Source: an uncultured Pseudomonadales bacterium (GTDB lineage: Bacteria; Pseudomonadota; Gammaproteobacteria; Pseudomonadales; Porticoccaceae). Taken from it: a stretch of 64,000 nucleotides of DNA. The DNA is taken from contig OX044363.1 in NCBI GenBank assembly GCA_943846685.1, positions 372,001-436,000 of the forward strand, written 5' to 3'. Of the stretch, positions 5,335-19,527 are shown piece by piece (positions within the stretch are counted from its first letter, which is position 1; every line of letters begins with the position of its first letter). The notes under the pieces are model-generated. The model was not told the origin of the DNA and did not search any database. It saw only the letters and a program-made list of their open reading frames with translations. The position numbers and the translations under genes are program-made.

Positions 5335-6615
5335 ATGGAATTTTTTACTGAATACGGCGCTATTCTAATTATCATTGCCGCGATGGCCGGCTTTTTTATG
5401 GCCTGGGGCGTCGGCGCCAATGATGTCGCTAATGCAATGGGTACCTCGGTTGGCTCCAAAGCGCTGACCATTAAGCAGGCTATTCTTATCGCCATGGTAT
5501 TTGAATTCGCCGGTGCTTATTTGGCCGGGGGCGAAGTTACCTCAACCATTCGCAAAGGCATTGTCGATTCCGCCATCTTTGCCGAAAGACCCAATGATCT
5601 GGTATTTGGCATGTTATCCGCGCTGCTGGCTGCAGGAACATGGCTGATGATTGCCAGCTTTATGGGCTGGCCAGTGTCGACAACCCATTCTATTGTCGGT
5701 GCGATTGTCGGCTTTGCGGCGATTGGTGTTTCGGTCGATGCGGTTCACTGGGGCAAGGTAAGCACTATTGTCGCCAGCTGGGTGGTCTCTCCAGTGATAG
5801 CAGGCACCCTGTCTTTCGCGCTGTTCCGCAGTGTGCAACGTCTTATCCTGCTCCAGGACGACCCCTTTACAAAAGCCAAACGCTATATTCCTATTTATAT
5901 GTTTTTTGTTGGTTTCCTTATCGCCATGGTGACCCTGCTAAAAGGTCTCAAGCATGTCTTTAAAGATAACGGCATGGCATTGACCTTTGCAGATTCTGCA
6001 CTGATCGCATCGGTGGTCGGTATTGTTGTGGCGATAATTGGCAGCTACCTATTATCTCGAATTAAGCGTGACCTGAGCTTGGAAACAGATAATCGCTTCG
6101 CCAATGTTGAGCGCGTCTTCGCCGTCCTGATGATCTTTACTGCCTGTGCTATGGCCTTTGCCCACGGCTCAAACGATGTGGCTAACGCTGTAGGCCCTCT
6201 GGCTGCCGTGGTGAGCATTGTCTCTTCCGGCGGTGATATTGCCGCAAAGAGCATTATGCCCCCGTGGATACTCCTCTTGGGTGGTGGCGGAATCGTTGTG
6301 GGTCTCGCCACTTACGGCTTTAAAGTAATGGGCACCATCGGCCGCAAGATTACCGAGCTGACGCCAAGCCGTGGCTTTGCTGCCGAGCTGGGCGCCGCCG
6401 CTACTGTGGTTATTGCCTCGGGTACCGGCCTGCCAATCTCAACCACTCACACTCTGGTTGGTGCGGTTCTCGGCGTCGGTTTAGCCCGTGGTATTGGCGC
6501 ATTAAATCTGCGTATGGTGGGATCGATCTTCCTATCCTGGCTGGTCACTCTGCCTGCCGGTGCCGGTCTCTGTATTATCTTCTTCTATATATTCAAAGCC
6601 AGCTTTGGTCAATAA
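5335..6615 (+). CDS. pit: PiT family inorganic phosphate transporter
   Basis: A low-affinity inner-membrane phosphate (metal-phosphate) symporter of 426 residues with about 10-12 hydrophobic segments. The two inverted PiT repeats each carry the family signature: GANDVANAMGTS at about residues 27-38 and AHGSNDVANAVGP at about 275-287. Conserved PVSTTHSIVGAIVG and PISTTHTLVGAVLG elements follow each half. It is preceded by its PhoU-like partner and followed by a strong inverted repeat. The pair sits just before the nitrate locus, but nothing in the sequence links their regulation. Confidence 0.95.
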   Translation: MEFFTEYGAILIIIAAMAGFFMAWGVGANDVANAMGTSVGSKALTIKQAILIAMVFEFAGAYLAGGEVTSTIRKGIVDSAIFAERPNDLVFGMLSALLAAGTWLMIASFMGWPVSTTHSIVGAIVGFAAIGVSVDAVHWGKVSTIVASWVVSPVIAGTLSFALFRSVQRLILLQDDPFTKAKRYIPIYMFFVGFLIAMVTLLKGLKHVFKDNGMALTFADSALIASVVGIVVAIIGSYLLSRIKRDLSLETDNRFANVERVFAVLMIFTACAMAFAHGSNDVANAVGPLAAVVSIVSSGGDIAAKSIMPPWILLLGGGGIVVGLATYGFKVMGTIGRKITELTPSRGFAAELGAAATVVIASGTGLPISTTHTLVGAVLGVGLARGIGALNLRMVGSIFLSWLVTLPAGAGLCIIFFYIFKASFGQ

Positions 6616-6621
6616 GTCTCA

Positions 6622-6656
6622 GGCGCCATTAAACAGCCACACTGTTTAATGGCGCC
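6622..6656. terminator. Perfect 15-bp inverted repeat after the PiT gene
   Basis: GGCGCCATTAAACAG and its exact complement CTGTTTAATGGCGCC flank a five-base loop (CCACA), beginning seven bases after the transporter stop. It is followed by GATTCC rather than a T-run, so termination may be weak or the hairpin may stabilise the transcript. Confidence 0.6.
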
Positions 6657-6788
6657 GATTCCTAAACGTAAATCATCCAGAATAAAACTGCCCCAAGATA
6701 TAGCCAAACCAAAAAGTCTCGCACCAGCTTGTTTCAAAACCTTTCCTTAAGCGTCCTCAAAATCAGCTAAGTTATTGATTTTATTGGC

Positions 6789-6805
6789 TTGGCACGGATA
6801 TTGTA
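6789..6805 (+). promoter_or_regulatory. Sigma-54-like -24/-12 promoter of the porin leader
   Basis: TTGGCACGGATATTGTA matches the -24/-12 consensus (TGGCACG...TTGCW) except for T instead of C in the -12 GC. The two G anchors (6791 and 6803) are 12 bases apart as required. The predicted transcript start, about 6815, falls exactly at the first leader hairpin. GCACC at 6721-6725 resembles half an NtrC site but has no good partner. Confidence 0.6.
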
Positions 6806-6814
6806 TTGTGATTA

Positions 6815-6881
6815 GCGACATTGCAGTCTGCCGGGTAACGTAGCCCCTGCGCAAACGAATATTTGTGCACGGGCTTTTTTT
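6815..6881 (+). promoter_or_regulatory. ANTAR-type antitermination leader upstream of the porin
   Basis: Hairpin P1 is GCGAC-[ATTGCA]-GTC(T)GC at 6815-6831. Hairpin P2 is GGGT-[AACGTA]-GCCC at 6833-6846. Both hexaloops have A at position 1 and G at position 4, the rule for RNA targets of ANTAR proteins such as NasT/NasR. The 3' arm of P2 (GCCC at 6843) is also the start of a terminator stem, GCCCCTGCGCAAA (6843-6855) with TTTGTGCACGGGC (6862-6874), followed by seven T. P2 and the terminator therefore exclude each other. The motif is well known for nitrate genes; its use here by NasT is inferred from the adjacent nasT. Confidence 0.78.
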
Positions 6882-6917
6882 GTTTTTTGACCTTCGTTTT
6901 TCACAATAGGATTTACT

Positions 6918-8123
6918 ATGAACCACACACGCATCATCTCAACCGCTGCAGCGGCGCTTCTATGCCTGCAGCCTTTTGTCGCAACCTCTGCCGAAGATGC
7001 AACCAGTGTCAGCCAGATGTTCACTGATGGCAGCGCTTCAACATCTTTCCGCTATCGCTACGAAATGGTTGACCAGGATGGTATCGATAAAGATGCCGGT
7101 GCCTCAACACTAAAATCTCGCCTGACTTGGAAATCGGCTGCCTACAATGGGTTTACTGCAGGTATCGAAGTAGACAATGTCACCGTTATTGGTAACGAGA
7201 GCTACAAGACGCCAACCAATGGTAATGCTGGCTACCCAATCGTCGCCGACCCCAAGGGTACAGATATGAACCAGGCTTTTGTCGGCTATGCAGGTTCATC
7301 CTACAGCGCCAAGCTTGGTCGTCAGCGTATTTTGCACGCCGGTCAGCGTTTTGTCGGCGGTGTCGGCTGGAGACAGAATGAGCAGACTTACGATGCACTG
7401 ACTCTCAGCCTGCCAGATTTTCATTCGGTGAAAATCGACTACAGTTACATCTGGAACGTAAACCGTATCTTTGGCCCTATCGACAGCACAGTTCAGGCCA
7501 AGCAGTGGGGGTCTGATTCCCATGCGCTGTTGGCCTCTTACTCACCGGCTAAAGGACATTCATTTAAGGGTTACGCCTATCTTCTGGACTTCGACAATGC
7601 GGCTGCCAACTCGACTAGTACTTACGGTATCGACTACAAAGGCAAACTTGGCAAGGCAACATTGGCCGCCAGTATCGCCTCGCAGTCAGACTATGGCGAC
7701 AACCCTGCCTCATTCGACACTGATTACCTGATGGCTGAGCTCAGCATGCCGGTCAAAAAGGTAACTGTTGCTCTGGGTTATGAATTGCTTGGCAGTGATG
7801 AAGGTGTTGGCTTTAAAACCCCACTAGCGACATTGCACAAGTTCCAGGGTTGGGCTGATAAGTTCCTCGGTACTCCGGGAACTGGTCTTGAAGATACCTA
7901 CCTGAAAGTCGCAGGCAAGATTTCCGGTATTCCTGTTGCCGTTTTCTACCATACGTTTACTGCCGATGAAGGCGGTGCCGATCTTGGTTCGGAACTGGAT
8001 ATTGTCGGTACCTACAAAATCAATAAAAACCTTTCTGCACAGCTTAAATACGCCAGCTACTCTGCAGATACCCATGCAACTGATACCGATAAAGTCTGGT
8101 TGACGTTGAATATGAAGTTTTAA
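6918..8123 (+). CDS. Outer-membrane beta-barrel porin, probably for nitrate/nitrite
   Basis: A 401-residue protein with a Sec signal peptide (about residues 1-25, ending near ATSAEDA) and alternating hydrophobic/polar beta strands. It ends in the aromatic residue of a typical outer-membrane barrel signal (LTLNMKF). It resembles the alginate-export/OprD-like porins of marine gammaproteobacteria; no enzymatic motif is seen. Its gene is preceded by a sigma-54-like promoter and an ANTAR-type leader that closely matches the one before nrtA. It lies directly before nasT-nasS. I therefore infer that it admits nitrate or nitrite across the outer membrane. A terminator follows. Family assignment is by overall character, so the exact porin class is uncertain. 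Confidence 0.75.
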   Translation: MNHTRIISTAAAALLCLQPFVATSAEDATSVSQMFTDGSASTSFRYRYEMVDQDGIDKDAGASTLKSRLTWKSAAYNGFTAGIEVDNVTVIGNESYKTPTNGNAGYPIVADPKGTDMNQAFVGYAGSSYSAKLGRQRILHAGQRFVGGVGWRQNEQTYDALTLSLPDFHSVKIDYSYIWNVNRIFGPIDSTVQAKQWGSDSHALLASYSPAKGHSFKGYAYLLDFDNAAANSTSTYGIDYKGKLGKATLAASIASQSDYGDNPASFDTDYLMAELSMPVKKVTVALGYELLGSDEGVGFKTPLATLHKFQGWADKFLGTPGTGLEDTYLKVAGKISGIPVAVFYHTFTADEGGADLGSELDIVGTYKINKNLSAQLKYASYSADTHATDTDKVWLTLNMKF

Positions 8124-8155
8124 TCCTATCTCCCAAAGATAGTAATAATAAGATC

Positions 8156-8186
8156 GGGGCGTGGATATGATCTGCGCCCCTTTTTT
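8156..8186 (+). terminator. Intrinsic terminator after the porin gene
   Basis: GGGGCG (8156-8161) pairs with CGCCCC (8175-8180), with further GGAT/GATC-like pairing inside, followed by six T. It lies 33 bases after the porin stop and before nasT. Some readthrough into nasT is plausible since no separate promoter is obvious. Confidence 0.75.
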
Positions 8187-8219
8187 ATTACTTCGCCTTT
8201 TTTTACAACAGATAAATTT

Positions 8220-8819
8220 ATGACCTCAGAGGTAGAAAAAAATCATGCTCGCGTAATGCTGGTGGATGACCTTCCGCAGCGATCTGCCCGAGTTGAAGAA
8301 AAACTTATTCAAGATGGCTTTGAGGTTATTTCCATACTGCCCTCTGCAACAGGTTTACTGTTTCAAATCGAACAGCTCAAACCAGATATTATCCTTATTG
8401 ATTTACAGTCCCCGGGCCGTGATGTTCTCGACAGCCTGTCGGTGATCAATGCTCACAATCCCACACCGGTGGTGATGTTCTCGGAAGAGGAAGATCCAGA
8501 TTTTATTAAAGATGCCGTCGATGCCGGTGTCACCGCCTATATGATGGGTGGCGTAGATACGGAAAAAGTAAAACCTGTGATCGACGTCGCCATGGCGCAA
8601 TTTAAATCCTTTCAGTCACTGCGCCAGAAATTGGATACCACAAGAACACAGCTAGAGAGCCTGTCGGTGATCGACAAAGCCAAACGTCTGCTGATGGATC
8701 AACAGGGAATCAGTGAAGACAGCGCCCACAAAGTGTTGCGCAACCTTTCTATGGACAGCAATCAGAGCCTGCCTCAGGCGGCCAAATCCGTTGTACAAAT
8801 ACTTAATAAAAATTCCTAG
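8220..8819 (+). CDS. nasT: NasT, ANTAR-domain nitrate-responsive antiterminator
   Basis: A two-domain RNA-binding response regulator of 199 residues. The receiver domain (about 10-130) has the acidic pair in VMLVDDLP and the expected phospho-acceptor Asp in IILIDLQSPG near residue 61. A coiled linker (LRQKLDTTRTQLE) leads to a C-terminal ANTAR domain (about 140-195: IDKAKRLLMDQQGISED...AHKVLRNLSMD). In the NasS/NasT system NasT is held by NasS without nitrate and, when released, binds two-hairpin leaders and prevents termination. Two such leaders flank this gene. The stop overlaps a GTG start of nasS, so the two are translationally coupled. Confidence 0.93.
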   Translation: MTSEVEKNHARVMLVDDLPQRSARVEEKLIQDGFEVISILPSATGLLFQIEQLKPDIILIDLQSPGRDVLDSLSVINAHNPTPVVMFSEEEDPDFIKDAVDAGVTAYMMGGVDTEKVKPVIDVAMAQFKSFQSLRQKLDTTRTQLESLSVIDKAKRLLMDQQGISEDSAHKVLRNLSMDSNQSLPQAAKSVVQILNKNS

Positions 8820-10045
8820 TGTCGGTTATGAATATACAAATCAATAAAAACTTACCCACCGCCGAGCTCGACCATCTCAATCTCGGCTATATGCGCCTCA
8901 CCGATAGCGCCCCGCTGATTGTTGCCCAGCATCTCGGGTTGTATGAAAATTTTGGCTTAAATGTGACCCTGCATAGAGAAGTTTCCTGGGCCAATATTCG
9001 CGACAAAACCATTGCCGGCACCTTCGACGCCTGCCAGATGCTGGCACCTATGCCGCTGGTGACAACCATGGGCGCGGCCGGTATTCGCGCACCGATGATC
9101 ACCGGGCTAGTGCTCTCTTTAAATGGCAATGGGGTGACAGTGTCCTCATCGCTGTGGAGCAAAATGAATGACTGTGCGAATGTTGATCAACCGCCAAAAG
9201 ATGCCCTGACCTCAGCACAATCATTGCGCGCGGTATTAAATAAAAACCCGGATACCAGACTGACCTTTGCCACCGTGCACTCTTTCTCCAGCCACACATT
9301 GCTGCTCAGAAAATGGCTGGTCGCTGGCGGCATTGATCCGGATACCGAAGTGCGGATTATTGTCTTGCCGCCAGAGCAGATGGTCGACAGTCTCGCCCAG
9401 GGAGTTATCGATGGCTTTTGTGTCGGCGCGCCCTGGAACACCATTGCTGTTGAATACGGTGTTGGCATTATGGCCACCACCGGATTTGAAATATGGAATA
9501 ACGCACCGGAAAAAGTTCTCGGCGTTCTCGAATCCTGGCACACGCGAAATCCGTCGACTCATTTGCGCCTGCGACTGGCATTGATGGCCGCCTGTGAATG
9601 GCTCGCCGATATGGAAAATCGCAAGACCGCAGTGGATATTCTCTCGCGACCCGAATATCTGGATCTTCCCGCCGACTACCTGCGTCCATCGCTGACCGGC
9701 GAGCTGATTCAACAGCGCTCGAAGACTATGCAGAGTCGCTCCAACTACCATGTCTTTTCCAGCTACCATGCCGGCTTCCCGTGGCGCTCCCAAGCTGAAT
9801 TAATGCTCGAACAATTTACCCCGCTGCTCGGCAAGCCGGTTGATTCAGACAAGCTCGCCTCTCTGGCACAGCAATGTTTCCGCAGCGACCTCTACCGTGA
9901 GGCTGCCACTCGCGCCGGCTTGAACTTTCCCGAGCAGGACTCCAAGCCTGAAGGTATTCACACCGAACCCTGGATGCTTAATGACAAGATTGAGCTTGGC
10001 AGCGACCTGATGGTCAGCCCCAGCGCGCCAACTCGGAACAGATAA
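8819..10045 (+). CDS. nasS: NasS, cytoplasmic nitrate sensor (NrtA-like)
   Basis: A 408-residue protein homologous to nitrate-binding NrtA/CmpA but lacking a signal peptide, as expected of the cytoplasmic sensor that sequesters NasT. Shared features with the NrtA encoded downstream include LGYMRLTDSAPLIVAQHLGLYE, cut here to its core LTDSAPL, then QMLAPMPL, GFCVGAPWN and the FxxYxxGFPWRSQAE region. The GTG at 8819 overlaps the nasT stop (TAGTG). The ATG at 8828 is an alternative start and the ribosome-binding site is weak for both. The pairing with nasT and absence of a leader peptide distinguish it from the periplasmic paralogue. Confidence 0.9.
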   Translation: MSVMNIQINKNLPTAELDHLNLGYMRLTDSAPLIVAQHLGLYENFGLNVTLHREVSWANIRDKTIAGTFDACQMLAPMPLVTTMGAAGIRAPMITGLVLSLNGNGVTVSSSLWSKMNDCANVDQPPKDALTSAQSLRAVLNKNPDTRLTFATVHSFSSHTLLLRKWLVAGGIDPDTEVRIIVLPPEQMVDSLAQGVIDGFCVGAPWNTIAVEYGVGIMATTGFEIWNNAPEKVLGVLESWHTRNPSTHLRLRLALMAACEWLADMENRKTAVDILSRPEYLDLPADYLRPSLTGELIQQRSKTMQSRSNYHVFSSYHAGFPWRSQAELMLEQFTPLLGKPVDSDKLASLAQQCFRSDLYREAATRAGLNFPEQDSKPEGIHTEPWMLNDKIELGSDLMVSPSAPTRNR

Positions 10046-10064
10046 CCGCTACGCACAACATAAA

Positions 10065-10081
10065 TGCACAGATTTGGTGCT
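10065..10081. promoter_or_regulatory. NtrC-like binding site upstream of the nrtA promoter
   Basis: TGCACAGATTTGGTGCT matches the NtrC consensus TGCACY-N5-GGTGCA in both half sites and spacing, differing at the sixth and the last base. It lies about 150 bases upstream of the -24/-12 promoter, a typical enhancer distance. The same bases also form part of a hairpin after nasS (8-bp arms at 10072-10079 and 10096-10103). Confidence 0.55.
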
Positions 10082-10227
10082 TGGCTTTTTTGCCTCACCA
10101 AATATGCCAGACCTGATCATTCTCAATAGATAATGCTTCGCCGTGTTTTCCCCAATACTTTCTATTTTGCCCCTGCTTTTATCTCTGTTTTCCCGCAAAA
10201 AACTATTTTCGACTTAATTTAAATAAC

Positions 10228-10244
10228 TGGCACAGTTATTGAAT
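10228..10244 (+). promoter_or_regulatory. Sigma-54-like -24/-12 promoter of the nrtA operon
   Basis: TGGCACAGTTATTGAAT has the -24 TGGCAC and a -12 TTGA in place of TTGC, with G anchors at 10229 and 10241 exactly 12 bases apart. The predicted start is about 10253, just before the leader hairpins. The -12 element is imperfect, so confidence is moderate. Confidence 0.5.
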
Positions 10245-10270
10245 AGTTACTTATACGCACTGCAATGCAA

Positions 10271-10351
10271 GACCTCATCGCTGATGGGTGTCACCGGGTA
10301 ACGATGCCCGCCTACCTCCGCTACCACGGATAGTAGGCGGGCATTTTTTTT
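10271..10351 (+). promoter_or_regulatory. ANTAR-type antitermination leader upstream of nrtA
   Basis: P1 is CCTC-[ATCGCT]-GA(T)GG at 10273-10287, with the same bulged T as in the porin leader. P2 is CGGGT-[AACGAT]-GCCCG at 10295-10310. Both hexaloops carry A1 and G4. The terminator 5' arm ATGCCCGCCTAC (10304-10315) overlaps P2 and pairs perfectly with GTAGGCGGGCAT (10333-10344). An inner TCCG/CGGA pairing extends it, and eight T follow. This is the layout described for NasT/NasR-controlled nas leaders. Nitrate should favour P1/P2 and readthrough. Confidence 0.85.
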
Positions 10352-10379
10352 GATTCTTAAATATTGAGGTATAGGTTTT

Positions 10380-11768
10380 ATGCATTCCGCTACAAAAAAT
10401 AGCTTTAAAAGTGTGTTCTCTCGCACACTGAAAACATTGGCCGCTGTCGGCCTGATGTTAAATGGCACCTCCGCAATAGCAGAGCTGGGCGAACCTGAAA
10501 AAGACGAACTCAGATTCGGTTTTATTAAGTTAACGGATATGGCACCTATCGCCATCGCCTATGAAAACGGTTACTTCGAAGACGAAGGTCTGTACGTGAC
10601 CATCGAAGCGCAGGCCAACTGGAAAGTACTTCTCGACGGTGTTATCGACGGCAAACTGGACGGCGCACATATGCTTGCCGGCCAGCCTCTAGCGGCAACC
10701 ATCGGCTACGGCACCAAAGCGCATATCGTTACACCCTTTAGTATGGATCTGAATGGTAATGCGATCACTGTCTCCAACGATATCTGGAAGCAGATGAAAC
10801 CCTATGTGCCGATGGAAGATGGCAAGCCTGTCCATCCGATCAAAGCTGACTACATGAAGCCAGTCGTCGACAAATTTACCGCCGAAGGCAAGCCGTTCAA
10901 AATGGGTATGGTATTCCCTGTATCGACCCACAACTATGAACTGCGCTACTGGTTGGCGGCGGGCGATATTCACCCGGGTTTCTACGCACCGCACAAAGGT
11001 GATAGCAGCGGTACATTAGAAGCTCAGGCACTATTGTCTGTAACCCCACCACCACAGATGCCAGCCACCCTCGAAGCCGGCACTATCTACGGCTACTGTG
11101 TCGGCGAGCCTTGGAATCAGCAGGCTGTGTTTAAAGGTATTGGTGTGCCTGTAGTCACTGATTACGAAATCTGGAAGAACAACCCAGAGAAAGTTTTCGG
11201 CATGACTAAAGAGTTCACCGAGAAGTATCCAAACACCACAGCACGCGTGGTTAAAGCATTGATCCGCGCCGCTAAATGGCTCGATGAGAACGACAATGCC
11301 AACCGTCCTGCCGCGGTTAAGATCCTCTCGCAGAGCAACTATGTTGGCGCCGACTACGATGTAATTGCCAACAGCATGACCGGCACCTTTGAGTACGAAA
11401 AAGGTGACAAGCGTTCGGTTCCTGACTTCAACGTGTTCTTCCGTTACTTCGCAACCTACCCCTACTACTCAGATGCAGTCTGGTACCTGACTCAAATGCG
11501 TCGCTGGGGACAGATTTCAGAACCCAAATCTGACCAGTGGTATTTCGATGTTGCTGCCAGCGTTTACCGTCCGGATATCTACAAGACTGCGGCACTGGAA
11601 TTGATCGAAGAGGGTGTTGTGAGCGCTGCAGATTTCCCGGAGTTTGCTAAAGAGAGCGGTTTCCGCTCACCACAGAAACACTTTATTGATGAAATCGTCT
11701 ACGACGGTTCCAAGCCCAATGATTACCTGAAGAAATTCCCAATTGGTCTTAAGGACGAAATTCTATAA
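10380..11768 (+). CDS. nrtA: Nitrate ABC transporter, substrate-binding protein NrtA
   Basis: The 462-residue periplasmic nitrate (nitrite) binding component of the NrtABC importer. A signal peptide spans residues 1-34 (basic SRTLK, hydrophobic LAAVGLML, cleavage after SAIA). The mature part has the family blocks [45 protein letters not shown] and FEIWK-like [13 protein letters not shown]. It is the first gene of the operon behind the sigma-54/ANTAR leader. A GC-rich stem-loop lies between it and nrtB, consistent with more binding protein than permease. Confidence 0.95.
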
Positions 11769-11792
11769 GAGTTCTTAAACCGAGCAGTAACG

Positions 11793-11830
11793 AAAACAAC
11801 GGCAGGCCAAACCGGCCTGCCGATTGTTTT
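11793..11830 (+). terminator. Intercistronic stem-loop between nrtA and nrtB
   Basis: CGGCAGGCC (11800-11808) and GGCCTGCCG (11814-11822) form a nine-bp GC-rich stem with loop AAACC. The flanks AAAACAA and TTGTTTT extend it across one bulged A. As a partial terminator or 3'-end stabiliser it would raise the NrtA to NrtB ratio; this is inference. Confidence 0.6.
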
Positions 11831-11885
11831 GAAAGCCGAATTAATTAAGACAGCAATATAAAGAATTTAAATTAAGGCACCGAAA

Positions 11886-12887
11886 ATGAGTACAGCAACA
11901 ATCACATCCAAGATCGCAAAATTACAGTCTCTGATCACAGTAGCTAACCTGTTAAGCGCTTTGGAAAAAACGGTAAAAGCAGCGGTACTTCCGCTAACCG
12001 GAATCGTGATGTTTCTGTTTCTCTGGCAGGCAACCGCCAGCAATATTGTCACCTCTCTGGGTCAGTTTCCGGGACCGGGAGATGTTTGGGACCAATCAAA
12101 AATATTAATCGAAGAACATCATGCCGAGCGCGAAAAAGCCGATGCATTTTATGTTCGCCAAGAAGTACGCAATGCCAAGAAGCTGGCTAAAAATCCAGAT
12201 GCTAAAGTAAAAATTCGCCCCTACACGGGCAAGGCAACCTACTTCGATCAAATTTTCACCAGCCTCTACACCGTCGCCTTTGGCTTTTTAATTGCGACCC
12301 TGATTGCCATACCTCTAGGTATCGCCTGCGGCCTTAGCGAAAAAGTCTACAGCGCCGTCAATCCGATTATTCAAACATTCAAGCCAGTGTCACCGCTGGC
12401 TTGGCTGCCGCTGGTTACCATGGTGGTATCAGCACTCTATGTCAGCGATGACCCCTACTTTGAAAAAGCCTTTTTAACCTCGGCATTCACCGTCGCGCTC
12501 TGCTGTCTGTGGCCCACCGTGGTCAACACCATTGTCGGTGTCGCCAGTATCGACCGCGACCTGATCGACGTAAGTCGCGTACTGCGACTGTCATGGCCTG
12601 TCTATATCAAGACCATTGTTATCCCCTCAGCGATTCCACTTATCTTTACCGGACTGCGCCTCTCTCTAGCGACTGGCTGGATGGTTTTGATCGCCGCTGA
12701 AATGCTCGCCCAAAACCCCGGGCTGGGAAAATTTATCTGGGATGAATTCCAAAATGGATCATCCAGTTCTCTCGGCCGAATTATGGTCGCGGTCATTACC
12801 ATCGGCATTATCGGTTTTATTTTGGATCGCTTAATGCTGGCTCTACAAAAACGTGTTAGCTGGGACAAACAGGCGATTTTCCGCTAG
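11886..12887 (+). CDS. nrtB: Nitrate ABC transporter, permease NrtB
   Basis: A 333-residue inner-membrane permease. A cytoplasmic N-terminus leads to a first membrane segment at about residues 36-55 (LPLTGIVMFLFLWQATA). A soluble basic insert follows (about 75-115, rich in KKLAKNPDAKVKIRPY), typical of proteobacterial nitrate permeases. Five further membrane segments carry the coupling loop with VASIDRDLIDVSRVLRLSW and GLRLSLATGWMVLIAAEML. It pairs with NrtA and the NrtC ATPase encoded on either side. Three 12-bp tandem repeats follow its stop. Confidence 0.95.
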   Translation: MSTATITSKIAKLQSLITVANLLSALEKTVKAAVLPLTGIVMFLFLWQATASNIVTSLGQFPGPGDVWDQSKILIEEHHAEREKADAFYVRQEVRNAKKLAKNPDAKVKIRPYTGKATYFDQIFTSLYTVAFGFLIATLIAIPLGIACGLSEKVYSAVNPIIQTFKPVSPLAWLPLVTMVVSALYVSDDPYFEKAFLTSAFTVALCCLWPTVVNTIVGVASIDRDLIDVSRVLRLSWPVYIKTIVIPSAIPLIFTGLRLSLATGWMVLIAAEMLAQNPGLGKFIWDEFQNGSSSSLGRIMVAVITIGIIGFILDRLMLALQKRVSWDKQAIFR

Positions 12888-12890
12888 GCC

Positions 12891-12926
12891 CTGTGCAATA
12901 ACTTGCGCAATAACCTGTGCAACAAA
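12891..12926. repeat. 12-bp imperfect tandem repeat, three copies, after nrtB
   Basis: CTGTGCAATAAC, TTGCGCAATAAC and CTGTGCAACAAA follow one another from four bases after the nrtB stop and fill most of the gap to nrtC. An upstream in-frame start for nrtC inside this repeat (12903) is unlikely to be used. Confidence 0.7.
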
Positions 12927-12953
12927 CCCAGAAATTGTTTTAAGGAAATAACT

Positions 12954-13820
12954 ATGCATAAAAACTACCTAGAAATTAGTCAGGTAGGAATTGAATTCCC
13001 CACTGAAGCGGAGCCGTTTCGCGCGCTGCAGAATGTGAACCTGTCCATTCAACAGGGAGAATTTATCTCGTTAATCGGTCACTCCGGCTGCGGTAAATCC
13101 ACCGTGCTAAATATTATTGCCGGCCTCTACCAGGCCACCGAAGGCGGCATTATTCTCGAGGGCCGGGAAGTTGATGAGCCGGGCCCAGACCGCGCGGTTG
13201 TCTTCCAAAATCACGCGCTACTGCCATGGCTTACGGTTTATCAGAATGTTGAGCTCGCGGTTAAATGTGTTTTTAAGAAAACCAAAAGCAAAGCCGAGAT
13301 TCGCGAGTGGATTGAGCACAATCTCGAGCTGGTGCATATGGATCACGCCATGCACAAGCGCCCGGGAGAAATCTCTGGCGGTATGAAGCAGCGTGTCGGT
13401 ATTGCCCGCTGTCTGGCTATGCAGCCAAAAGTATTATTGATGGATGAACCCTTTGGCGCACTTGATGCGCTGACCCGCGCGCACCTGCAAGACTCACTGA
13501 TGGAAATTCAAAATCGACTCGGCAACACCGTGGTCATGATTACCCACGATGTTGACGAGGCAGTCCTGCTCTCCGATCGCATTGTCATGATGACCAATGG
13601 CCCGGCCGCCTCTATTGGCGAAGTGTTAGATATTAATTTGCAGCGTCCCCGCGATCGTTTATCACTGGCTGAAGACCCAGCATTTAATGCCTATCGTCAG
13701 CAGGTTTTGCGCTTCCTTTACGAAAAGCAGAAGAACCCCGCTGCAAAGCCGAAACAGGTTGAATCTGCATCAAAATCTGAGCCAAAAACCGACAAGGTTA
13801 GTGCTCCGGAAGCAGCATAA
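12954..13820 (+). CDS. nrtC: Nitrate ABC transporter, ATP-binding protein NrtC/NrtD type
   Basis: A 288-residue ATPase energising nitrate import. Walker A GHSGCGKST is near residue 42, the Q-loop follows in VFQNHALLPWLTV, the ABC signature SGGMKQRVGIAR is near 140, and Walker B LLMDEPFGALDA near 161, with the switch His in MITHDVDEA. It is a single-domain protein without the C-terminal NrtA-like domain of cyanobacterial NrtC. Its C-terminus is a low-complexity Lys/Pro/Ala/Ser tail. The ORF is open from 12903, but the ATG at 12954 has AAGGAA just upstream and starts at conserved sequence. Confidence 0.94.
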   Translation: MHKNYLEISQVGIEFPTEAEPFRALQNVNLSIQQGEFISLIGHSGCGKSTVLNIIAGLYQATEGGIILEGREVDEPGPDRAVVFQNHALLPWLTVYQNVELAVKCVFKKTKSKAEIREWIEHNLELVHMDHAMHKRPGEISGGMKQRVGIARCLAMQPKVLLMDEPFGALDALTRAHLQDSLMEIQNRLGNTVVMITHDVDEAVLLSDRIVMMTNGPAASIGEVLDINLQRPRDRLSLAEDPAFNAYRQQVLRFLYEKQKNPAAKPKQVESASKSEPKTDKVSAPEAA

Positions 13821-13863
13821 AAGCGAACAAATCCAGAAACATATTAATTAAGGAAATAGATCA

Positions 13864-16389
13864 ATGTTAAAAGTCGTCGTCGTCGGAAATGGCATGGTGG
13901 GACACCATTATGTCGAGCAACTGGTTGCCTCAGAAATAGAGGCTCATATCACCGTGATCGGTGGTGAAACTCGCCCAGCCTATGACCGGGTTCACCTCTC
14001 CGAAGTCTTCTCTGGACGCACTCCGGAAGATCTCGCAATGACCACCAGAGATCACTACCGTGAGCTTGGCGTTGAAGCGCACTTTGGCGACTTTGTAGCG
14101 AGCATTGATCGCGATAATAAAATCGTCACTACCGAAAGCGGCAAAGAGTATGCCTATGACAAACTGGTACTGGCGACAGGTTCCTACCCCTTTGTACCTC
14201 CAGTAAAAGGCAATGACCTTGAACCCTGCCTGGTATACCGCACGATTGATGATCTCGGCATGATTCAAGCCCAGGCCAAAGACCGCAAAATCGGTGTGGT
14301 TGTGGGTGGCGGACTGCTCGGACTGGAATGTGCCAACGCCGTCAAAAATCTCGGCCTGGAAACCCATGTTGTTGAATTTGCCCCGGGGCTGATGGGCGTT
14401 CAGCTCGACAATGGCGGCAGCGCCATGCTGCGCCGCAAGATTGAAGCACTCGGCGTTCAGGTACACACCAGCAAAGCCACTCAGGTTATTGAAGAAAACA
14501 GCGATGGCGACACGCGCCTGGTGATGCAGTTCGCCGATGGTGGCTCACTGGCCACCGATATGATTGTCTTCTCCGCCGGTATTCGCCCTTACGACCAACT
14601 GGCGCGCGACTGCGGCCTAACTGTTGGCGAACGCGGCGGTATCGAAGTCGACTACCATTGTAAAACCAGCGACTCAGATATTTTTGCGATCGGTGAATGC
14701 GCCCTGTTTGGCGGTAGAATTTTTGGACTGGTGGCACCGGGTTACCGTATGGCCGAAGCCGCTGTCAGCCAGCTGGGCAATGATAGCGTCGCCTTCCAGG
14801 GCGCCGATATGAGCACCAAGTTAAAACTGCTCGGTGTCGATGTTGGCTCGATTGGCGATGCCCACGGCAAAGAAGAAGGCTCTGTCGCCTACACCTTTAG
14901 CGATGAGCGCATCGATGTCTACAAGCGTCTGATTGTCAGCGCCGATGGCAAAAAATTACTCGGCGCAGTATTGGTGGGTGACTGTTCCGACTACGACACC
15001 TTGCTGCAGTATTTCCTCAACGGCATTGATCTGCCCGCCGATCCACAGACCCTGATCCTGCCCTATAACGCTGGTGAAGCACCCGCCCTTGGCGCTGCAG
15101 CACTGCCTGCCACAGCCACTATCTGCTCCTGCCACAATGTCAGCAAAGGCGATATTGTCAGTGCCATGGATGCTGGCTTCTGCTCACTGGCAGAGGTTAA
15201 AGCCGAAACCGCCGCCAGCACCGGTTGCGGTGGCTGTACCGCACTGCTGAAAAATATTGTCGACGATGAGATGGCCGCACGCGGTCTGGAAGTGAATACC
15301 GCCATGTGCGAACACTTCAACTTTACCCGTCAGGAAATGTTTCATGTTATTAAAGTTGAATCGATCAAAAGCTTTGAAGAGCTGATTGAAAAACACGGCA
15401 CTGGCCGCGGCTGCGATATCTGTAAGCCGACCGCTGGTTCGATTCTCGCCTCACTGTGGAACGACTATGTTCTCGAAGACAAACACGTTGGCCTGCAGGA
15501 TACCAACGACACCTTCCTCGCCAATATGCAGAAGAACGGCACCTACTCCGTCGTGCCGCGTATTCCAGGCGGTGAAATCACCCCCGACAAATTAATTGTT
15601 CTCGGCCAGGTCGCCAAAAAGTACCAGCTCTACACCAAAATCACCGGCGCTCAGCGTGTCGATCTGTTTGGTGCCCGCGTGCAACATCTCCCGGCTATCT
15701 GGGAAGAGTTGATCGAAGCCGGTTTTGAAACCGGCCACGCCTACGGCAAGGCACTGCGCACCGTGAAATCCTGCGTTGGCAGCACCTGGTGTCGCTACGG
15801 CGTTCAGGACAGTGTCGCCATGGCACTCTATGTAGAGAACCGCTACAAAGGTCTGCGCTCCCCGCACAAATTCAAGTCTGCAGTCTCTGGCTGTACCCGC
15901 GAATGTGCAGAGGCGCAGTCAAAAGACTTTGGCATTATCGCCACCGAGAACGGCTGGAATCTTTTTGTCTGCGGTAACGGCGGAATGAAGCCACGACATG
16001 CAGACCTGTTTGCCACCGATCTCGACGACGAGACACTGATCAAATATATCGACCGCTTCCTGATGTTTTACGTGCGCACTGCAGATCGCCTGCAGCGAAC
16101 CTCGGTATGGATGGATAACCTCGAAGGCGGTCTGGAATATCTGCAGAAAGTGGTTATCGAAGACTCTCTGGGAATAGGCGCCGAGCTCGAAGATCAGATG
16201 AATAATATTGTCGACACCTACCAGTGCGAGTGGAAAACCACCATTGAAGATCCGGAAAAACTCAAACGCTTCCGCCAGTTTGTAAATTCTGAAGCGGAAG
16301 ATCGTGAAATTATCTTTGTCGAAGAGCGCGGCCAGCCAAGACCCGCCACCGAAGAAGAACGCCAACAAATTTTAGCTAAATCAGCCTAG
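13864..16389 (+). CDS. nirB: Assimilatory nitrite reductase [NAD(P)H], large subunit
   Basis: An 841-residue cytoplasmic flavo-siroheme enzyme that reduces nitrite to ammonium with six electrons. Domains in order: FAD/NAD(P)H pyridine-nucleotide oxidoreductase (VVVGNGMVGHHYVEQL at the N-terminus; VVGGGLLGLECA near 150), a BFD-type [2Fe-2S] domain (CSCHNVSKGDI near 422 with STGCGGC near 453), then the ferredoxin-like and siroheme/[4Fe-4S] domains. The siroheme ligand motifs are CVGSTWC near 635 and SGCTRECAE near 675. The length is typical of NirB. AAGGAA precedes the ATG. nirD follows 11 bases later. Confidence 0.97.
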   Translation: MLKVVVVGNGMVGHHYVEQLVASEIEAHITVIGGETRPAYDRVHLSEVFSGRTPEDLAMTTRDHYRELGVEAHFGDFVASIDRDNKIVTTESGKEYAYDKLVLATGSYPFVPPVKGNDLEPCLVYRTIDDLGMIQAQAKDRKIGVVVGGGLLGLECANAVKNLGLETHVVEFAPGLMGVQLDNGGSAMLRRKIEALGVQVHTSKATQVIEENSDGDTRLVMQFADGGSLATDMIVFSAGIRPYDQLARDCGLTVGERGGIEVDYHCKTSDSDIFAIGECALFGGRIFGLVAPGYRMAEAAVSQLGNDSVAFQGADMSTKLKLLGVDVGSIGDAHGKEEGSVAYTFSDERIDVYKRLIVSADGKKLLGAVLVGDCSDYDTLLQYFLNGIDLPADPQTLILPYNAGEAPALGAAALPATATICSCHNVSKGDIVSAMDAGFCSLAEVKAETAASTGCGGCTALLKNIVDDEMAARGLEVNTAMCEHFNFTRQEMFHVIKVESIKSFEELIEKHGTGRGCDICKPTAGSILASLWNDYVLEDKHVGLQDTNDTFLANMQKNGTYSVVPRIPGGEITPDKLIVLGQVAKKYQLYTKITGAQRVDLFGARVQHLPAIWEELIEAGFETGHAYGKALRTVKSCVGSTWCRYGVQDSVAMALYVENRYKGLRSPHKFKSAVSGCTRECAEAQSKDFGIIATENGWNLFVCGNGGMKPRHADLFATDLDDETLIKYIDRFLMFYVRTADRLQRTSVWMDNLEGGLEYLQKVVIEDSLGIGAELEDQMNNIVDTYQCEWKTTIEDPEKLKRFRQFVNSEAEDREIIFVEERGQPRPATEEERQQILAKSA

Positions 16390-16400
16390 GAGAATTGACT

Positions 16401-16754
16401 GTGACCAATACGCAACAAGCAATCGAACCCCAAACAATCACTCTCTGTGGGCTATCTGACCTGATTCCAAATTCTGGAATCTGTGCAGAAGTCGATGGCC
16501 AGCAGATCGCACTGTTTTATCTGCCCAGTGAAACCCCGCAGGTCTATGCCATAGGCAACTGGGATCCGATTGGTAAAGCCCATGTACTATCAAGGGGCAT
16601 GGTCGGCGATATTGGCGGCAAATTGGTGGTTGCATCACCGCTGTATAAACAACATTTTGATCTGTTGACCGGCGAGTGCCTTGAAAATGACCAGGTATCG
16701 GTCAGCGCTTTCTCTGTGTCACTGGTTGACGATCAAGTACTGCTGAGTCTGTGA
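16401..16754 (+). CDS. nirD: Nitrite reductase [NAD(P)H], small subunit
   Basis: A 117-residue Rieske-fold partner of NirB. The region NWDPIGKAHVLSRGMVGD and VASPLYKQHFDLLTGECLE corresponds to the Rieske core, but the Cys/His cluster ligands are absent, as is normal for NirD. GTG at 16401 is preceded by AGGAG at eight bases; a TTG at 16395 is also in frame but too close to that site. It lies between nirB and nasA with very short gaps. Confidence 0.94.
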   Translation: MTNTQQAIEPQTITLCGLSDLIPNSGICAEVDGQQIALFYLPSETPQVYAIGNWDPIGKAHVLSRGMVGDIGGKLVVASPLYKQHFDLLTGECLENDQVSVSAFSVSLVDDQVLLSL

Positions 16755-16764
16755 TTTTTCATCC

Positions 16765-19527
16765 ATGACTGACAGCGACAACCTGCTAACTGATAGCCAA
16801 ATAAAAACAACCTGCCCCTACTGTGGTGTGGGTTGTGGCGTCAGTGCAACAGTTGAAAATGACCAGATTATTGCCGTCTCTGGAGATCAGCAACACCCGG
16901 CCAATTTAGGCAAACTCTGCGTTAAAGGCGCTGCACTGGACAAAACCATGGGCAGTCAGGGCCGCTTGTTGCATCCCTCTATTGAAGGCCAAACGGTCAG
17001 CTGGGAAACCGCGATAGAAACCGTTGCCGACAAGTTAAATACCATTCGAGAAGAACATGGCCCCGGTGCAATTGCCTTCTATCTCTCCGGGCAGTTGCTG
17101 ACCGAAGACTACTATGTGGCCAATAAACTCGCCAAAGGGTTTATCGGCACCGGCCATGTGGATACCAATTCAAGACTCTGTATGTCATCCGCCGTTGCTG
17201 GCTATAAACGCGCCTTTGGCGCTGATGCCGTCCCCTGCAACTACGAAGACCTGGAACAGTGCGACCTGTTAGTGCTGACCGGCTCCAACGCCGCCTGGAC
17301 TCATCCAGTGCTGTATCGCCGTATCGCCGCAGCCAAAGAAAAAAATCCGGCGATGAAAGTTGTGGTTATCGATCCCCGCCGAACCGCCACCTGTGACCTC
17401 GCCGATCTGCATCTGGCGATTGCACCGGGTTCAGATGCTTTTGTATTCAATGGCTTACTCCGCTACCTGAAGCAAAACAACCGCCTTGACCAACAGTATA
17501 TTGCACAGCACACCGAGGAATTTGAGGCTGCCATCGCTGAGGCCCTGTCCCACAACCAGGCCGAACTGGAAGAGAAGATTGCGGTTAGCTCAGACGATCT
17601 ACAAACCTTTTACCAATGGTTTTCCGAGACTGAAAAGGCGATTACTTTTTACTCCATGGGCGTTAATCAATCCGCCACCGGCACCGATAAATGCAATGCC
17701 ATTATCAACTGCCATCTGGCCACCGGCCGCATCGGTAAAGTCGGCGCAGGACCTTTCTCAATTACCGGCCAGCCCAATGCCATGGGTGGTCGTGAAGTCG
17801 GCGGTCTAGCCAATATGCTCGCCGCGCATATGGACTACAGCAGTGAAACCATCGCTACCGTCAGGGAATTTTGGAAAGCGGACAATATGAGTCAAGAGCC
17901 CGGTTTTAAAGCTGTAGATCTATTTGATGCCGTCGCCGATGGCAGAATTAAAGCGATTTGGATTATGGGCACCAATCCGGTGGTCAGCATGCCCGATGCC
18001 AATCGCGTAAAAGCCGCTCTGGAACAGTGTGACACGGTGATTGTCTCCGACTGTATCGCCCAGACGGATACTACTGCCACGGCAAATATACTCTTGCCCG
18101 CCAGTGGCTGGGGTGAAAAGTCCGGCACTGTAACCAACTCTGAGCGACGTATCTCTGGCCAGCGCGCATTGGTAACCCCAATTGCCGAAGCCAAATCAGA
18201 CTGGTGGATAATCTCCCAGGTCGCTCAAGCTATGGGCTTTAAAGGCGCCTTTAATTACCAGTCGGCGCGGGATATTTTTGTTGAGCACGCTGAGCTCAGT
18301 GGTTTCAAAAACAATGGCAGTAGATTATTTAATATCAGTGCCCTTAGTGAAATCTCTGCCGCGGAATACGATCAGCTTAAACCTATACAGTGGCCGATTA
18401 CCGCCGCCAAACCCAATGGCACCGAGCGTCTATTTGAAGACGGTCAATTTATAACCCCCAGCGGCAAGGCTAGATTTATAGCGGTTGCTGCCAGTCTTCC
18501 CCAACGCCGTAAGTCTGAAGAACTGTTTCCCCTGACCCTGAATAGCGGGCGTATTCGCGACCAGTGGCACACCATGACTCGCACCGGTCGTGCCCCTGAG
18601 CTATTGACCCATATAGAACAGCCCACAGTTGCCATACATCCACAGACGGCAAAAGAGTTCGGCTTGGAGAACGGCGATCTAGCTGAAATTACTACCCAGC
18701 AGGGCAGTATTAAAGTCGTCACCCAGATTGATGCGGGCATGCAATTGCAGCAACTCTTTGTGCCTATTCACTGGAACGATCAATTCGCCAGCAGTGCGCG
18801 AGTCGACAGCCTGGTGGCGCCAATTATCGATGGGGTCTCCGGGCAACCAGAGTTTAAATACAGCCGTGCCGCGATCAAAAAACTAGAGACTCCCTGCTGG
18901 GCCACTGTGGTCAGCCGCAACAAAATTAACTGTTCAGGCTTTATTCACTGGGTGGTCTCCCCCCTGCCAGACAACTTGGGCTTTATCTATCAGGTTGCAC
19001 TGGACAGTGACTTCAACTGGCAGACCTATATGGCTGCAGCTAATAGCGACCTATCCGCTACCCCCCAGGCCTATGCCCAATTTTCCGATAGGGCGAATCT
19101 CGATCAGCGCCTTATTTGCTATACCGACGATCGTATGGAGATGGCCATTTTTAGTCACCGAGATAAACAGGCGCTACCGCCAAAAACCTGGATGCAGACG
19201 CTGCTTAACAACAGTGTTATCGACACTTACTGGTCGCTGCTCTCGGGGCCCAGCAACAGTCAGAAACCGGACAGCAGACTTATCTGTTCCTGCTTTAAAG
19301 TCAGTGAGAAGCGCATTGTCGAAGCGATTGAAGCCGGTGCTAATTCTGCTCAGGCGCTGGGCGAGCAATTGAACTGTGGCACTAACTGCGGCTCCTGTAT
19401 TCCCGAACTCAACAGTCTTATAGCGCTCTCAACTGCCAAGCCAAATAGCCAGCTAGATTCCCAATTAGAGGGCCCTATGCTGTTTGAAGAAATTCCCCCA
19501 TCCCCCATCACAAGTACAATTGGATAA
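16765..19527 (+). CDS. nasA: Assimilatory nitrate reductase, catalytic subunit
   Basis: A 920-residue cytoplasmic molybdopterin oxidoreductase that reduces nitrate to nitrite. The N-terminal [4Fe-4S] ligands are CPYCGVGCG near residue 16, with GKLCVKG near 51. Conserved Mo-bis-MGD blocks include TNSRLCMSSAVAGYKRAFG (19 residues), FNGLLRYL and GTNPVVSMPDA, with RDQWHTMTRTGRAPELL in the C-terminal molydopterin-binding domain. A BFD-like [2Fe-2S] domain closes the protein (CSCFKVSEKRIVEAIEAG near 840; NCGTNCGSC near 870), so electrons probably arrive from a reductase or NADH-linked partner. The gene starts 10 bases after nirD. Molybdenum cofactor genes are not in the window. Confidence 0.96.
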   Translation: MTDSDNLLTDSQIKTTCPYCGVGCGVSATVENDQIIAVSGDQQHPANLGKLCVKGAALDKTMGSQGRLLHPSIEGQTVSWETAIETVADKLNTIREEHGPGAIAFYLSGQLLTEDYYVANKLAKGFIGTGHVDTNSRLCMSSAVAGYKRAFGADAVPCNYEDLEQCDLLVLTGSNAAWTHPVLYRRIAAAKEKNPAMKVVVIDPRRTATCDLADLHLAIAPGSDAFVFNGLLRYLKQNNRLDQQYIAQHTEEFEAAIAEALSHNQAELEEKIAVSSDDLQTFYQWFSETEKAITFYSMGVNQSATGTDKCNAIINCHLATGRIGKVGAGPFSITGQPNAMGGREVGGLANMLAAHMDYSSETIATVREFWKADNMSQEPGFKAVDLFDAVADGRIKAIWIMGTNPVVSMPDANRVKAALEQCDTVIVSDCIAQTDTTATANILLPASGWGEKSGTVTNSERRISGQRALVTPIAEAKSDWWIISQVAQAMGFKGAFNYQSARDIFVEHAELSGFKNNGSRLFNISALSEISAAEYDQLKPIQWPITAAKPNGTERLFEDGQFITPSGKARFIAVAASLPQRRKSEELFPLTLNSGRIRDQWHTMTRTGRAPELLTHIEQPTVAIHPQTAKEFGLENGDLAEITTQQGSIKVVTQIDAGMQLQQLFVPIHWNDQFASSARVDSLVAPIIDGVSGQPEFKYSRAAIKKLETPCWATVVSRNKINCSGFIHWVVSPLPDNLGFIYQVALDSDFNWQTYMAAANSDLSATPQAYAQFSDRANLDQRLICYTDDRMEMAIFSHRDKQALPPKTWMQTLLNNSVIDTYWSLLSGPSNSQKPDSRLICSCFKVSEKRIVEAIEAGANSAQALGEQLNCGTNCGSCIPELNSLIALSTAKPNSQLDSQLEGPMLFEEIPPSPITSTIG

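Follow-up and report, generated by a model that had tools for sequence, protein, structure and literature searches.

The closest described systems are the leaders of nasF, nasA, nirB, eutP and nosR, controlled by NasT, NasR or EutV, in which a hairpin (P2) with A at position 1 and G at position 4 of its hexaloop (A1 and G4) shares its 3′ arm with a terminator. The available text on eutP and nasF reports that the hairpin P1 is required for antitermination (PMC3369931, PMC3369936). That on EutV gives a single hexaloop as the minimal binding motif, states that antitermination needs both hexaloops to be contacted in turn, and leaves the role of single hexaloops to further work (PMC8934654). In Paracoccus, nitrate or nitrite releases NasT from NasS, according to the available sections of PMC3795266 and PMC5424462. 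OpdQ of Pseudomonas aeruginosa is an OprD-family porin raised by nitrate via the NarXL two-component system (available text of PMC4694141). In a Burkholderia cenocepacia ntrC mutant several porins are lowered in expression, and porins and nasT are in the NtrC-dependent set; the available part of that report describes no leader or antitermination for these porins, a difference from the locus described here (PMC5491218).

Our locus lies in a stretch of 64,000 nucleotides (the window) from a genome of about 2.2 Mb in one contig. It resembles the NasT, NasR and EutV leaders in having an A1/G4 P2 that shares its 3′ arm with a terminator and in its nas gene setting, with NasT and NasS adjoining, but differs from them in that the target is a porin gene, the leader matches no Rfam family, and no canonical P1 is conserved. 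OpdQ is an OprD-family porin and is among the closest solved folds to the window porin, but it is under NarXL control (available text), whereas antitermination is predicted for the window porin. Among the titles and abstracts of the best literature matches listed, no porin under NasT or ANTAR control was found, and the word 'porin' is absent from the main texts, as available, of PMC3369931, PMC8934654, PMC6759348, PMC5424462, PMC3369936, PMC8164766 and PMC12316311, although the supplementary hit tables of PMC3369931 could include one. As far as the literature was searched, the NasT switch and nitrate control of an OprD-family porin (by NarXL) are known, and the porin target and the lack of a conserved second canonical loop appear to be new. 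We propose, with a probability of about 0.85, that an attenuation leader of the NasST/ANTAR kind controls this OprD/Occ-like porin gene by the mechanism set out below.

The porin gene in its nas locus

The order on the + strand is leader, porin, nasT, nasS, second leader, nrtA, nrtB, nrtC, nirB and nasA, with these features:

6790–6805, + strand: sigma-54-like promoter TGGCACG-GATA-TTGTA (GG-N10-GT), from direct sequence reading and scoring of relatives
6815–6831, + strand: hairpin named P1, GCGAC[ATTGCA]GTC-T-GC, from the fold, at the projected transcript start
6817–6821, + strand: GACAT, part of a (T)GACA-type sequence enriched 5′ of P2 in porin leaders
6833–6846, + strand: P2, GGGT[AACGTA]GCCC, ANTAR-type hexaloop with A1 and G4, from the finder and covariation
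6842–6881, + strand: intrinsic terminator, stem 6842–6875 and then a T run, GCCC common to P2, from the fold and covariation
6918–8123, + strand: outer-membrane porin, 401 aa, OprD/Occ-like fold, Pfam Alginate_exp, ATG at 6918
8156–8186, + strand: terminator-like site between porin and nasT, 11 pairs and six T
8220–8819, + strand: nasT, receiver and ANTAR domain, from domain matches
8819–10045, + strand: NasS-like nitrate/nitrite sensor (NMT1_2, NrtA-like), from a family match, adjoining nasT
10228–10243, + strand: sigma-54-like site TGGCACAGTTATTGAA before nrtA, by eye
10271–10292, + strand: hairpin GACCTCATCGCTGATGGGTGTC before the nrtA P2; contiguous pairing gives no A1/G4 hexaloop
10295–10352, + strand: nrtA leader, P2 CGGGT[AACGAT]GCCCG and overlapping terminator, from the fold, finder and model
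10380–19527, + strand: nrtA, nrtB, nrtC, nirB and assimilatory nitrate reductase (nasA), from family matches

An initial annotation, made from the letters alone, had named an outer-membrane porin gene, and this is borne out by the fold, by an Alginate_exp (PF13372) score of 42.7 bits against a gathering cut-off of 25.2, and by its position directly 5′ of nasT-nasS. AlphaFold2 predicts a confident 18-strand barrel (mean pLDDT 84.5). The closest solved folds are MOMP, OccK, OccAB and OpdQ, while OprD and AlgE rank lower, and the top ten have TM scores of 0.62–0.67 by query length. The predicted barrel and the domain match thus ally the protein with the OprD/Occ and AlgE channels, but it differs from them in sequence, with 11–17% identity among the 50 fold matches listed and no match at E≤1 in a phmmer search of the PDB. 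Against the Opr family porin model NF033923 (NCBIfam) it scores 40.2 bits, below the curated cut-off of 150. It is the one porin of its family in its own genome at E≤0.001, and its substrate would be nitrate or nitrite.

The nasT product is the sole ANTAR match of the genome, adjoins the leader, and aligns to EutV (6wsh/6ww6) across nearly its entire length. Like a NasS-NasT pair, this receiver-ANTAR protein stands beside an NrtA-like NMT1_2 protein with nitrate assimilation genes adjoining; the nasA product scores below the NasC cut-off of NCBIfam and is named from its match and context. The genome has one sigma-54 (RpoN) gene, plus NtrC above the curated cut-off. As the terminator-like site at 8156–8186 parts the porin from nasT, nasT would profit from read-through only, and the porin and nasT are more than one simple shared transcript.

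The sigma-54-like promoter claimed in the initial annotation is read at 6790–6805 and recurs in relatives. Its spacing element is GG-N10-GT, where the classical form is GG-N10-GC, and relatives have C, T or A at the place of that final C. A site scoring at least 19 is present in 36/36 nasT-linked porin loci (the window and L083 added, duplicates included), 105–255 bases 5′ of the estimated porin start codon, compared with 6/53 unlinked loci and 15/360 shuffles. NtrC-like sites in the window reach 7/10 matches, which is shuffle level, and are complete in L056 and L064 only. The transcript start at about 6815 is a projection from the position of the putative promoter.

There are several features of P2 and the terminator that bear on the proposal. 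First, a strict finder (A..G hexaloop, stem of at least 4 bp, 3′ arm opening a terminator with a T run) finds two sites on both strands of the 64 kb, at 6837 and at 10300 (before nrtA), and none in five mononucleotide shuffles, one strand each. Second, the GCCC shared by P2 and a terminator ending in seven T (6875–6881), as first annotated, is confirmed in the sequence. Third, in an alignment of 14 porin leaders from near kin (alignment A1), 9/14 terminator pairs are changed on both sides (25 such cells), a level that 0/500 shuffles reach; for the P2 helix, counted with its outer column pair 38-53, 95.7% of cells are paired, and one pair is changed on both sides. RNAalifold chooses the terminator alone on the aligned leaders, and P2 itself is 4 bp long in the window and 3 bp in several relatives. 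RNAfold of the porin leader gives the terminator and the small hairpin at 6815–6831, with an energy that is ordinary compared with shuffles (z −1.3; 23/200 equally good).

A second leader of the same type, absent from the initial annotation, lies at 10228–10352. The fold of the nrtA leader stands out from its shuffles (z −4.2), and a covariance model from porin leaders, with the nrtA leader left out, matches it at E 0.0097. A third match of the leader model in the genome (E 0.08) was rejected, being a terminator without P2.

Leaders in related genomes

Porin relatives were taken as the best 80 loci listed for 581 relatives, and the nearest among those listed belong to uncultured Pseudomonadales, Porticoccaceae and the SAR92 clade. 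A relaxed finder (P2 of at least 3 bp, P2-terminator within 350 bases) detects the leader before 26/34 porins located directly 5′ of nasT (a set that includes the duplicates L118 = L048 and L125 = L067, and L117, whose leader letters equal those of L046), compared with 1/55 others; dinucleotide shuffles give 6/680 (linked) and 1/1100 (unlinked). The lone unlinked match, L083, is nasT-linked by coordinates, with its porin 41 bases 5′ of the nasT match, and was counted as unlinked by the distance rule because the nasT frame, taken stop to stop, begins inside the porin. In the eight linked loci that are negative by the finder (L067, L087, L093, L099, L109, L111, L123 and L125), a P2-like hairpin with a poorer terminator is seen by eye. 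Two of these have A at position 4 of the P2 loop (L087, AATAAA; L099, AACAAG), the position at which G stacks on the protein in EutV, and their NasTs form a tight pair in the tree described below.

These counts bear on a different explanation, that the hairpin is the terminator of the upstream phosphate-transporter genes, which we take to be a phoU-like gene and pit, that its likeness to P2 arose by chance and that the porin is expressed from elsewhere. There is indeed an intrinsic terminator, and pit ends at 6615, about 175 bases 5′ of the promoter-like site. However, the sigma-54-like site found in all 36 linked loci is placed, in the window, after pit and before the hairpin, and pit has a 15-bp inverted repeat of its own just 3′ of it (6622–6656; seen by eye, with no T run on the + strand). 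The hairpin also occurs in L034, L035 and L037, where no pit was found upstream in the stretch examined, and is absent before unlinked porins; in addition, no sigma-70-like site was found on the + strand of 6600–10500. We therefore consider this explanation highly improbable.

Three comparisons relate the leader to the nas locus and to the ANTAR gene. First, among the 46 genomes with an unlinked porin, 15 carry an ANTAR gene; the finder detects a leader before 0/15 of their unlinked porins, which suggests that control goes with the nas locus rather than with the porin family. Second, the porins of L039 and L040 are 66 and 64% identical to the window porin and have a sigma-54-like site, an ANTAR gene was not found in either genome, and P2 and the terminator are decayed by eye and negative by the finder. 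Third, in L058 and L105 neither an ANTAR gene nor, by the finder, a leader was detected, and the control loci with a leader, L035, L048 and L053, have ANTAR in 3/3, although several ANTAR-negative genomes are MAGs, whose incompleteness could mimic ANTAR absence; L041, with an upstream stretch ending at a contig edge, was left out of this comparison.

A covariance model built from alignment A1, to which the porin leader matches by construction, has a match at E≤0.1 in 21 of 61 genomes of the family. Nineteen model-found loci were inspected (L192, L197 and L198 left out): six are before porins, six before nrtA and one before nirB (71%), and of the other six, L187 and L194 are unnamed and four precede an FAD oxidoreductase that shares about 30% identity with NirB. 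In L187, one of these 19, no P2-terminator was found. The six porins (leaders L188, L191, L193, L195, L196 and L203, L196 being the L064 locus again) belong to other genera of the family and are 50–53% identical to the window porin. The FAD oxidoreductase leaders (L200, L201, L204 and L206) all occur in one genus of the family. A porin lies directly 5′ of nasT in 7/60 nasT loci examined in the order (88 found). L166 (4642–5094) and L170 (7742–8599) have porins 3′ of nrtC and not 5′ of nasT, and no leader was found there.

Taken together, the terminator covariation, the association with nasT, the decay in two orthologues whose genomes gave no ANTAR match and the gene order argue for NasT-type control of the porin, as initially annotated; on these sequence grounds, a porin under predicted NasT-type antitermination and a sigma-54-type promoter is well supported.

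The hairpin at the projected transcript start

The initial annotation had claimed two A1/G4 hexaloops. The claim stands for P2, and for P1 as a hairpin in the window sequence and fold; it is not supported for P1 as a conserved hexaloop. Requiring an A1/G4 hexaloop with at least three contiguous pairs within 50 bases 5′ of P2, P1 is found in 2/28 porin leaders (shuffle mean 2.9) and in 2/14 nrtA leaders of Porticoccaceae-like kin (1.4), compared with 16/25 comparison leaders (3.0), a mixed set in which three of the 25 are nrtA leaders of the porin-linked loci L083, L084 and L109, all without P1, L151 is counted twice and the L142 site lies within a frame annotated NasS. For these counts the near-duplicates L032, L047, L048, L049, L117 and L118 and nine P2 sites without an annotated downstream gene were removed, L123 and L125 were left out, and six porin P2s were placed by hand. 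P1 with five pairs occurs in 0 porin leaders, 0 nrtA leaders of kin and 13 comparison leaders. In 18 further leaders of the family, which partly overlap the earlier set (L199 being the nrtA leader of L045, and L196 being L064), there are 2 contiguous P1s (shuffle mean 1.7), and with four pairs also 2 (mean 0.7, maximum 3). Contiguous P1 is thus at shuffle level in the lineage, and P1 with A1 and G4 was not found to be conserved in relatives. Among the best 80 porin loci listed, a dual-hairpin scan returns only L032 besides both window leaders.

These counts, together with the alignment, bear on a second explanation, in which the leader has two working hexaloops, P1 being real but degenerate in relatives, and NasT contacts both P1 and P2. 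The window P1 does have A1 and G4 and is part of the predicted fold. When one bulge and one closing mismatch are tolerated with at least four pairs, 6/28 porin leaders have P1 (shuffle mean 2.9, maximum 8), the window and the same-genus L114 at the same place, with 2/14 nrtA leaders of kin (1.2) and 16/25 comparison leaders (3.1). At the aligned P1 place A1 is kept in 14/14 leaders and G4 in 6/14, both being kept in those six (the window, L032, L114, L043, L044 and L045). Covariation, named in the initial annotation as the check on P1 and P2, gives a divided answer. Across the 14 leaders, pairing holds in 71.4% of cells for the outer four pairs of P1, one pair having changes on both sides, and the P2 helix is paired at the higher figure given above; against this, the loop-closing pair of P1 is broken in 11/14 aligned leaders, G4 is absent in 8/14, including all five SAR92-type leaders, and the joint P1 and P2 score is equalled by 18/500 shuffles. 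With these breaks, and with contiguous P1 in only 2/28, 2/14 and 2/18 leaders of the lineage against 16/25 in the comparison set, the two-hexaloop explanation seems unlikely. As judged from the aligned letters, a closed canonical P1 is not conserved in these leaders, and a degenerate, mismatched P1 is possible in the nearest kin. Without a conserved canonical P1, NasT probably acts via one canonical hexaloop.

The region 5′ of P2 is not featureless. Hairpins with at least five pairs and a loop of 3–8 occur there in 22/28 porin leaders (shuffle mean 14.1, maximum 20), some of them overlapping the promoter, and TGAC and GACA are each present in 15/28 leaders where about two are expected. Such signals raise the prospect that NasT reaches its target by another route, for instance by contact with the GACA-type sequence or with the 5′ hairpin, P2 serving as a switch helix only; the SAR92-group 5′ hairpins keep their stem while the letters change (by eye), which would fit such a route. 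It appears rather improbable nonetheless. Of the parts of the leader, the P2 loop most closely resembles known ANTAR sites, and A1 and G4 are kept in it in the porin leaders inspected except L087 and L099, while the GACA-type sequence is not enriched in the nrtA leaders of the same group.

P1 was also set against the relationships of NasT. When 81 NasT proteins are placed in a quick tree, 46 rows are split from 35 by a branch with support 99; the 46 include every comparison locus with a P1 of at least five pairs, and the 35 hold all 28 porin-linked rows, with L119 (4 bp, AU-rich) the sole P1-plus row among them. The P1 label requires at least three changes on this tree, counted without the window, with five rows unlabelled and with L123 labelled though outside the P1 count. 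Details of the tree are unsure because several end branches are long, and the sample leans to porin-linked loci because many were found via the porin. The residue matching EutV Tyr164, which in EutV stacks on G4, is His in the window; across the 28 porin-linked loci it is His in 19, Phe in five, Tyr in three and unreadable in one, and it is Tyr in 14/16 comparison loci with P1. A tie between P1 loss and change at this position was tested on the tree and is not supported: starred branches give only two independent pairs, neither of which runs in the expected direction, and the residue follows kinship.

Proposed mechanism and its setting

We return to the reading in which NasT acts at P2. Sigma-54 RNA polymerase would start near 6815, probably with NtrC activation at nitrogen shortage. 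If the NasS-NasT logic of Paracoccus applies here, NasS would hold NasT when nitrate is absent, the 3′ arm of P2 would join the terminator, and transcription would end at the T run; once nitrate or nitrite is present, freed NasT would bind the P2 hexaloop, and P2 would replace the terminator. The porin would then be made alongside the NrtABC pump. The one canonical hexaloop may be aided by a degenerate P1, a variable 5′ hairpin or the GACA-type sequence. NasT binding, the nitrate response, and passage of nitrate or nitrite through the porin are all predicted steps. The initial annotation suggested that permeability of the outer membrane and nitrate uptake are switched on together; the sister leader before nrtA in the same cluster makes this a fair inference.

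More tentatively, and with the odds somewhat against it, we suggest that a separate NasT branch (SAR92/Porticoccaceae, Halieaceae-like and related marine gammaproteobacteria) antiterminates via one canonical hexaloop, a variable 5′ hairpin or the GACA-type sequence having taken the place of the lost second loop, and that the porin has been brought into the regulon under an AND gate that needs both nitrogen hunger (sigma-54/NtrC) and nitrate (NasT). Unlike the EutV proposal, such leaders would manage with one canonical loop, and they offer natural material for asking whether one hexaloop suffices for antitermination, a question left by the available text of PMC8934654.

The proposed control would bring the outer membrane into the nitrate-assimilation regulon of marine bacteria. 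Where nitrate is scarce, uptake could be limited by diffusion across the outer wall, and making a dedicated pore only in the presence of nitrate would be a sensible answer. In this SAR92-like bacterium and in related ones, the cell probably opens the outer wall along with the nitrate pump.

Two further observations concern NasT relatives and the start of the window. L112 and L113, from another family, have NasTs 86–87% identical to that of the window, with nasS and nrtA and no porin match 5′ of nasT, a pattern that perhaps reflects horizontal transfer or porin loss. At 75–955 there is what we take to be a SpoT C-terminal-like region across two overlapping frames, resembling a frameshift that is either real or a sequencing error.
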